NCBI GenBank assembly: GCA_030684395.1
Contig: JAUXTT010000011.1
Location: forward strand, 62,001-126,000
Reading direction: 5' to 3'
Origin: Bacteroidota bacterium
GTDB lineage: Bacteria > Bacteroidota > Bacteroidia > B-17B0 > Aurantibacillaceae
DNA length: 64,000 bases
The translations under genes and the position numbers were made by a program. Positions 8,632 through 9,807 of the stretch are shown one piece after another. Positions within the stretch are counted from its first letter, which is position 1, and each line of letters begins with the position of its first letter. The notes beneath the pieces were generated by a model. The model saw only the letters and a program-made list of their open reading frames with translations, was not told where the DNA came from and searched no databases.

Positions 8632-9219
8632 CTAATTCTTCTTCTCATCCTTCTTTTTTTCGTCATAATTTACATCAACATCACCCAACAAGTGTGGGGC
8701 AGGCTCCTTCGTTTTCTTGGGAGTAAGCGCAGTTGTTTTTGTTTTCGACTTTGTTTTTGTTTTCGGCTTCTTAGTTGTTTTTGGATCCGTGCAAACTTCT
8801 CCTTTCGTTTGTATTTCCGGGTTCTTAACCGTTTTGGTAGTATCTTGCTTAACAGGTGGATTCTCCACTTTTACGCCTACTTTACCTTTTACATGGTCAT
8901 CCTGCGCAGAAAGCTTAGAGCCTCCCATAAACCACGACATAAAAGTAACCGCAATTACAAAAGCCACTTTTCGTGTTAATTTGAACCCTGTAAATCTTTC
9001 AAAAAAAGAATCAAAATTTAAGGCGATCAATTGATCATTATTGAACTTACCACAAGTCGTTCCCTCTCTTGGTTGAGAAAAATAGGACTTTATTTCTTCC
9101 AGCGTTTTTTTACTGAAATCCACAACATCTTTTGTGCAAACCAAGCAAAAAACTCCCTTTTCATTCGGGGTCATTTTGTTCCAGTCTTCGTGACAGGGTT
9201 TTTTAATTGAGATATTCAT
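8632..9219 (-). CDS. Four-cysteine CHxDW/CxxC membrane-anchored protein, paralogue 1
   Basis: A 195-residue protein of unknown function. The start is set at the ATG of MNISIKKPCHEDW, because its tandem paralogue begins identically there and upstream codons are not conserved. The N-terminal domain (about 1-75) has conserved C9-H10, C25-x2-C28 and C56, which suggests a small metal-binding fold. One hydrophobic helix (about 84-104) follows, then a Lys/Thr/Pro-rich tail ending in a LLGDVDVNYD motif. The downstream paralogue keeps the same order. The topology is probably cytoplasmic Cys domain, membrane helix and periplasmic tail. Similar short proteins occur in Bacteroidota, but I know no assigned function. 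Confidence 0.7.
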   Translation of the reverse strand: MNISIKKPCHEDWNKMTPNEKGVFCLVCTKDVVDFSKKTLEEIKSYFSQPREGTTCGKFNNDQLIALNFDSFFERFTGFKLTRKVAFVIAVTFMSWFMGGSKLSAQDDHVKGKVGVKVENPPVKQDTTKTVKNPEIQTKGEVCTDPKTTKKPKTKTKSKTKTTALTPKKTKEPAPHLLGDVDVNYDEKKKDEKKN

Positions 9220-9282
9220 TCGAGAATTTATTAAACAGTGAATTAAATATAAGACAAAATAAGTACAGTCCAAAATTTGATA

Positions 9283-9807
9283 CTACCCGTTTGGAGTTCT
9301 TCTAACGCCTCCCATAATTTTAGGAGGTGTGATCTTATTCTTCGGCTCAACCCTTACATCACCCTTAAGATGTTTTTCGGGTTGATTTGTCCCTTTTATT
9401 GTATCAGTTTTTACTTCTTCGGTTTTAACAGGAGTAACAGTATTTGTTGTTGGAGCTTTGATCTTTCCCATTTTAATATGCTTATCGTCCTGCCCTTTTG
9501 AAGCATTCGGCAATCCCAAAAACAATACTAAAGTCATTGCAGTAATAGTTGCCAGTTTTCTTGAAAGCTTAAAACCAAAGAATTTTTCGATAAATGACTC
9601 CATATTTAATTCCACCAACTGATCTTCGGTAAACCGCCCGCATAATTTTCCCGGTTTAGGTCTCGAAAAATAGTCTTTGATCTCTTCCAGGCTCTTTACA
9701 CTGAAATCTATTACATTTTTAGTGCAAATACCACAAAAAGCGCCTTGTTCGTTTGGTGTCATTTTGCTCCAGTCTTCATGGCAGGGTTTGTTTATTGAGA
9801 TATTCAT
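9283..9807 (-). CDS. Four-cysteine CHxDW/CxxC membrane-anchored protein, paralogue 2
   Basis: A 174-residue paralogue of the adjacent minus-strand gene, 63 bases upstream of it. It keeps MNISINKPCHEDW, the CGIC motif (C25, C28), C56 in KLCGRF, the EEIKDYFS helix and one membrane helix (about 85-105). Its tail is shorter and ends with HLKGDVRVEP. The start is the ATG before NISINKP; an upstream ATG at 9873 is possible but adds non-conserved residues. The DNA around both starts is nearly identical over about 45 bases, so the pair arose by duplication. Function is unknown. Confidence 0.7.
   Translation of the reverse strand: MNISINKPCHEDWSKMTPNEQGAFCGICTKNVIDFSVKSLEEIKDYFSRPKPGKLCGRFTEDQLVELNMESFIEKFFGFKLSRKLATITAMTLVLFLGLPNASKGQDDKHIKMGKIKAPTTNTVTPVKTEEVKTDTIKGTNQPEKHLKGDVRVEPKNKITPPKIMGGVRRTPNG

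Follow-up and report, generated by a model that had tools for sequence, protein, structure and literature searches.

Two adjacent genes in the window, that is, in the whole 64,000-nucleotide stretch of DNA analyzed here, encode proteins with an N-terminal four-cysteine domain, a single hydrophobic segment, and a tail, and they raise the question of what that segment does with the two parts that it joins. An earlier note, made from the sequence alone, had placed tandem paralogues at this locus, and both open reading frames are indeed present, each with C9-H10, C25-x2-C28, and C56. They are arranged head to tail on the minus strand, and the start codon of gene 1 was picked by alignment with relatives. 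The features are as follows.

8632..9219, minus strand: gene 1, 195 aa (ATG at 9219, stop at 8632-8634), with a four-cysteine domain, a predicted internal signal peptide, and a Lys/Thr-rich tail
9013..9219, minus strand: gene 1 four-cysteine domain, residues 1-69, with C9, C25, C28, and C56; M16, G22, and D34 are invariant in alignment A4
8920..8967, minus strand: hydrophobic core of the predicted gene 1 internal signal peptide, residues 85-100, VAFVIAVTFMSWFMGG, preceded by basic residues
8902..8913, minus strand: putative gene 1 signal peptidase I site LSAQ, residues 103-106, A105/Q106
8635..8904, minus strand: predicted mature exported tail of gene 1, residues 106-195, with motifs VKGKVGV, TKGEV, and LLGDVDV
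9283..9807, minus strand: gene 2, 174 aa (ATG at 9807, stop at 9283-9285), the tandem paralogue upstream of gene 1
9601..9807, minus strand: gene 2 four-cysteine domain, residues 1-69, 68% identical to the gene 1 domain
9511..9555, minus strand: hydrophobic core of the predicted gene 2 internal signal peptide, residues 85-99, LATITAMTLVLFLGL
9490..9501, minus strand: putative gene 2 signal peptidase I site SKGQ, residues 103-106, G105/Q106
9286..9492, minus strand: predicted mature exported tail of gene 2, residues 106-174, with motifs HIKMGKI, LKGDVRV, and IMGGV

The two domains are identical at 47 of 69 residues and at 71% of DNA positions, which bears out the duplication proposed in the note. 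Identity drops to 14 of 39 residues in the linker and helix and to 24 of 100 columns in the tails, which are nearly unalignable. The genome from which the window comes holds six clear family copies and a seventh that is distant and standalone.

Conservation and candidate metal site of the four-cysteine domain

Family loci came from two sources, whole genomes of the phylum and a genome collection. Among 144 full-length relatives, C9, M16, C25, C28, D34, and C56 are invariant, so the variation of cysteines among homologues that the earlier note had named as evidence against its reading was not seen, and the spacing C-x15-C-x2-C-x25-28-C is kept in 156 of 161 members. The residue that follows the first cysteine is histidine in 124 of the 161 members (77%) and is P, N, or S in the window genome's own paralogues, indicating that H10 is not a required ligand. 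Thus, of the Cys/His pattern that had been proposed, the four cysteines stand and the histidine does not, leaving a four-cysteine rather than a Cys/His site. Four invariant cysteines that include a CxxC knuckle are the pattern expected of a zinc-binding four-cysteine domain, and a candidate metal site on these residues is plausible from sequence. In an evenly drawn sample of the phylum, the domain is present in 53 of 395 genomes and 25 of 171 genera, mostly within the window's class.

Searches for a known family left the domain unassigned, as the note had held: Pfam and NCBIfam contain no model for it (a loose cut-off returned scattered chance families only), and no relative was found in the PDB by sequence or profile. 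The best PDB profile match, an HMG box, was dismissed as a chance hit, since no more than 19 residues are aligned (C-x-E-x-W-x-x-M-x(4)-KGKF). With the zinc-ribbon consensus CPxxWxxL as a query, a single plasmid match was obtained (E 0.6), along with a weak match to Zn_ribbon_8. Two AlphaFold2 models of the domain, with moderate mean pLDDT values of 74 and 71, show two short strands with a helix between them and a helix after; pLDDT is lowest in the first 30 residues, where C9, C25, and C28 sit, and a fold search with these two models returned no match. The domain was not found in viral contigs. Literature searches by topic found no paper on the family, and searches with sequence strings matched, among the entries listed, only by chance (author names and other words). 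Two of three plasmid-borne matches are publicly named by their tails ('energy transducer TonB' and 'carboxypeptidase-like regulatory domain') and the third has no annotated feature, such that tail-based or absent annotation leaves the N-domain and its internal signal peptide nameless. The annotated gene start of a copy on Aureibacter tunicatorum plasmid pAT2 (L172, NZ_AP025307.1) falls inside the four-cysteine domain, indicating that public annotation can truncate family proteins.

A distant standalone relative of the domain occurs in the window genome and one other, in open frames of 101-121 codons. Compared with the family by hhalign, these relatives (alignment A5, three sequences only) score a probability of 94.7 and an E value of 5.8e-8 and represent a weak relative, the existence of which suggests that the domain may work without a signal peptide. 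Standalone copies at L163:1501-1776 (G000:C30:4367-4642), L169, and L171 are soluble-looking and follow the pattern MKFNPITK...CPxxxSW...C..C...DT...TCLKI. Each adjoins a conserved partner open reading frame of approximately 130-160 aa of the KTARDIESINEAAKEGFRPLV type, and close to the L171 copy are CRISPR-like direct repeats, which translate as repeated VRAPHPLKQGLR. Two further loci, L119:4482-5012 and L120:4603-5412, carry in-frame stops between the four-cysteine domain and the signal peptide, reflecting decay or gene splitting; in the L119 copy the fourth cysteine is also replaced by serine, so at least this copy looks decayed.

The helix and the exported tails

The earlier note had placed the domain on the cytoplasmic side of the membrane and the tail beyond it, and the charge distribution agrees with that orientation, with a mean net charge of +1.9 before the helix and -0.15 after it (positive-inside). 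What found no support is a permanent one-helix anchor coupling a metal site to a periplasmic tail. At the end of the helix, 100 of the 161 members carry a lipobox and 52 an xAQ signal peptidase I site, together 152, and there are domain-less paralogues with an ordinary signal peptide; the two halves are therefore probably cut apart. The motifs were scored by hand-written regular expressions devised after the sequences were seen. As a control, the same motif test was applied to internal hydrophobic segments of neighboring proteins, 18 of 140 of which were positive (Fisher p 2e-52 for family versus control, a value that ignores relatedness and overstates the significance because the relatives are not independent). 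By hydropathy and motif, the family has the basic region, hydrophobic core, and cleavage site of a Sec pre-protein, located off the N-terminus. The sites of the window pair, LSA/Q and SKG/Q, are acceptable and short of ideal.

Site type has also changed repeatedly within the family. Parsimony on a tree built from the domain and linker together gives 19 changes between lipobox and signal peptidase I types, and starred branches force at least three for each type. One close pair differs by a Cys-to-Tyr change, SLFGCAQ (L040:3934-4449) versus SLFGYAQ (L044:4476-4991). In several arrays of family genes, one paralogue lacks the domain and has an N-terminal signal peptide that aligns with the internal helix of the others. 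The clearest domain-less paralogue, L105:5819-6421, starts with MERKHKIFLLTLFVVIGTTLFSC, and its residues 6-200 match residues 88-284 of L104:4983-5834 (61% identity, E 3e-83); since the alignment runs from the helix onward, the L105 protein begins at the signal peptide. Further domain-less paralogues of lipoprotein type occur at L115, L059, and L063, and L102 and L071 contain signal peptidase I-type neighbors whose C-terminal part is common with family members. On these sequence features, we regard the helix as very probably a cleavable signal peptide. A 566-aa reading frame at L065:3283-4980, in which the signal-peptide segment FLLALFIAMGTTLFSC is repeated, is apparently two fused family members.

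The tails of relatives are envelope modules. Pfam assigns TonB_C to 37 of the 144, CarbopepD_reg (CarboxypepD_reg) to 25, the type 9 secretion (T9SS) sorting domain Por_Secre_tail to 25, and Plug to 3, indicating that the tails are probably exported, while those of the window pair match no known domain or family in Pfam or NCBIfam. The (L/H)LxGDVxV-like motifs described in the note are present (HLLGDVDV and HLKGDVRV) and lie close to the C-terminus, not at the very end as it had stated. Over the family's tails, h-x-G-[DEK]-[VI]-x-[VI] motifs number 209, versus 44 +/- 6.5 in shuffled tails, an approximately five-fold excess in which paralogues are not independent; the motif may serve in beta-strand docking or resemble a TonB box. 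In an approximate classification of tails by regular expression, every one of the 36 TonB_C-like members is of lipobox type, and nearly all CarbopepD-type members carry signal peptidase I sites. About eight members, also by regular expression, pair a lipobox with a T9SS-like tail, a combination that is difficult to fit with the model proposed below. One of the window genome's own copies, L004 (G000:C22:87302-87505), has such a lipobox and T9SS-type C-terminal tail, two supposedly exclusive exits.

A proposed export model and its competitors

The explanation that we propose builds on what was observed by computation, namely the conservation, the order of the parts, the cleavage-type motifs, the exported tail domains of relatives, and natural domain-less versions. 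The pre-protein would consist of an N-domain, an internal Sec signal peptide, and a tail. Residues 1-75 would fold in the cytoplasm, probably with one metal ion, most likely zinc, on C9, C25, C28, and C56. The signal peptide, approximately residues 78-105, would insert with its N-side in the cytoplasm, the Lys/Thr-rich tails (90 and 69 residues) would reach the periplasm, and signal peptidase I would cut after A105 in the gene 1 product and G105 in the gene 2 product. Relatives would use the same layout to export lipoproteins (by way of a lipobox and signal peptidase II) or larger envelope proteins. The four-cysteine domain would extend a cleavable signal peptide N-terminally by a very long, folded stretch and, after cleavage, would remain on the cytoplasmic side with the spent signal peptide. 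Its most likely role would be to control or report export of the tail through metal-dependent retention of the pre-protein at the inner membrane; alternatively, within the same view, the tethered domain might act on a cytoplasmic partner.

Of these steps, the metal, the actual cleavage, the retention, and the regulatory role are what we infer, and for the explanation as a whole our confidence is slightly better than even. It is probable that the family proteins are exported while their Cys4 domain stays behind in the cytoplasm; what that domain specifically does is proposed with low confidence. The conservation of the cysteines hints at a metal or redox element, which may modulate the export step or signal from the membrane. 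A broader version, which we offer tentatively and consider somewhat improbable, is that Bacteroidota possess a family of signal peptides into which a folded cytoplasmic sensor of metal or redox state is built, serving as an export gate or as a tethered post-cleavage reporter and linking that cytoplasmic state to TonB/SusC, lipoprotein, and T9SS traffic. If the explanation is true, secretome and lipoprotein predictions that assume an N-terminal signal may overlook family members, and export could be controlled through a conserved cytoplasmic module joined to cleavable signal peptides.

The family could instead consist of uncleaved single-pass transmembrane regulators, in which the Cys4 domain binds a partner such as an ECF sigma factor and a permanent helix leads to an envelope-sensing tail, as in an anti-sigma factor. 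Such a layout resembles the zf-HC2/ZAS anti-sigma factors, which also have a cytoplasmic Cys domain, one helix, and a periplasmic part, and a closely related ECF sigma gene does occur at seven Chitinophagaceae-type loci, six of them head-to-head at approximately 0-130 bp and L177 approximately 2 kb away. (The label derives from Lacibacter, Niastella, and a Chitinophagaceae MAG; the seven loci also include L119, L177, and L178.) In the six readable loci, the gene beside the sigma gene encodes a protein that itself has an anti-sigma-like layout, with a short N-terminal region, a helix, and a TonB_C-like end; the Pfam TonB_C model was applied to one of these proteins, that of L119, which passes the cut-off. 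This neighbor cuts both ways: as a regulator that is likely uncleaved, it shows tails of a similar kind in use close by, and it also provides the sigma genes with a probable anti-sigma factor within their own operon. Most family loci lack an adjacent sigma gene, as do the window neighbors that were read; no zf-HC2 profile match was obtained at E 0.001 among the 144 members, and H-x3-C-x2-C is absent from both window proteins. Since the family's helix looks cleavable in 152 of 161 members, T9SS sorting tails need a free periplasmic protein, and domain-less versions have ordinary signal peptides, we consider an uncleaved regulator unlikely.

The likeness of the proposed layout to the ESPR (PF13018) of type 5 autotransporters bears on a different reading, in which the N-domain is a passive extension that only paces export and senses no ligand. 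The ESPR is a conserved N-terminal extension ahead of a cleavable Sec signal peptide that is ordinary in other respects; in such extended signal peptides, export usually needs no more than the C-terminal part and can be slowed by the extension (PMC8151025). The family shares with this precedent a conserved extension placed before a cleavable-type Sec signal peptide, but the ESPR is approximately 25 residues long, whereas the family's conserved region spans 69 residues, includes four invariant cysteines, and occurs in Bacteroidota ahead of many unrelated tails. We know of no Cys site in the ESPR, and the eight Pfam families that the 144 members match at E 0.001 do not include PF13018. Because a conserved domain with four invariant cysteines hints at a role involving a ligand or redox chemistry, a purely passive extension appears quite unlikely. 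Least probable, and very unlikely in our judgment, is the view that the domain works in the cytoplasm as an enzyme or by binding nucleic acid, that its fusion to a signal peptide tethers it at the membrane, and that the tail is incidental cargo. The soluble-looking standalone relative and the interchangeability of the tails would fit this view, yet the tails are recurrent envelope modules that persist after loss of the domain, which argues that they carry a selected function.

The preferred reading, a cleaved signal peptide with an exported tail, also brings the family close to two groups of envelope proteins. Like TonB energy transducers (PF03544, TIGR01352), many relatives end in TonB_C, and some are publicly annotated accordingly; TonB_C was not found in the window pair, and the uniform lipobox of the TonB_C-like members gives them the appearance of lipoproteins, not of TonB coupled to ExbBD. 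T9SS cargo proteins normally begin with a signal peptide. Relatives that end in a sorting domain (PF18962/TIGR04183) resemble such cargo, and this domain was not found in the window pair.

Gene neighborhoods

At the nearest fetched relative, L039, the pair occupies the equivalent position, flanked by the tatA region and, on the opposite side, by rsmE. A functional link to tatA was considered; among the fetched loci, tatA was recognized only beside L039, as was rsmE downstream, and the adjacency was thus treated as local synteny. In Flavobacteriaceae, arrays of family genes lie mostly between divergent tadA and dxs, a link that is positional, not functional.
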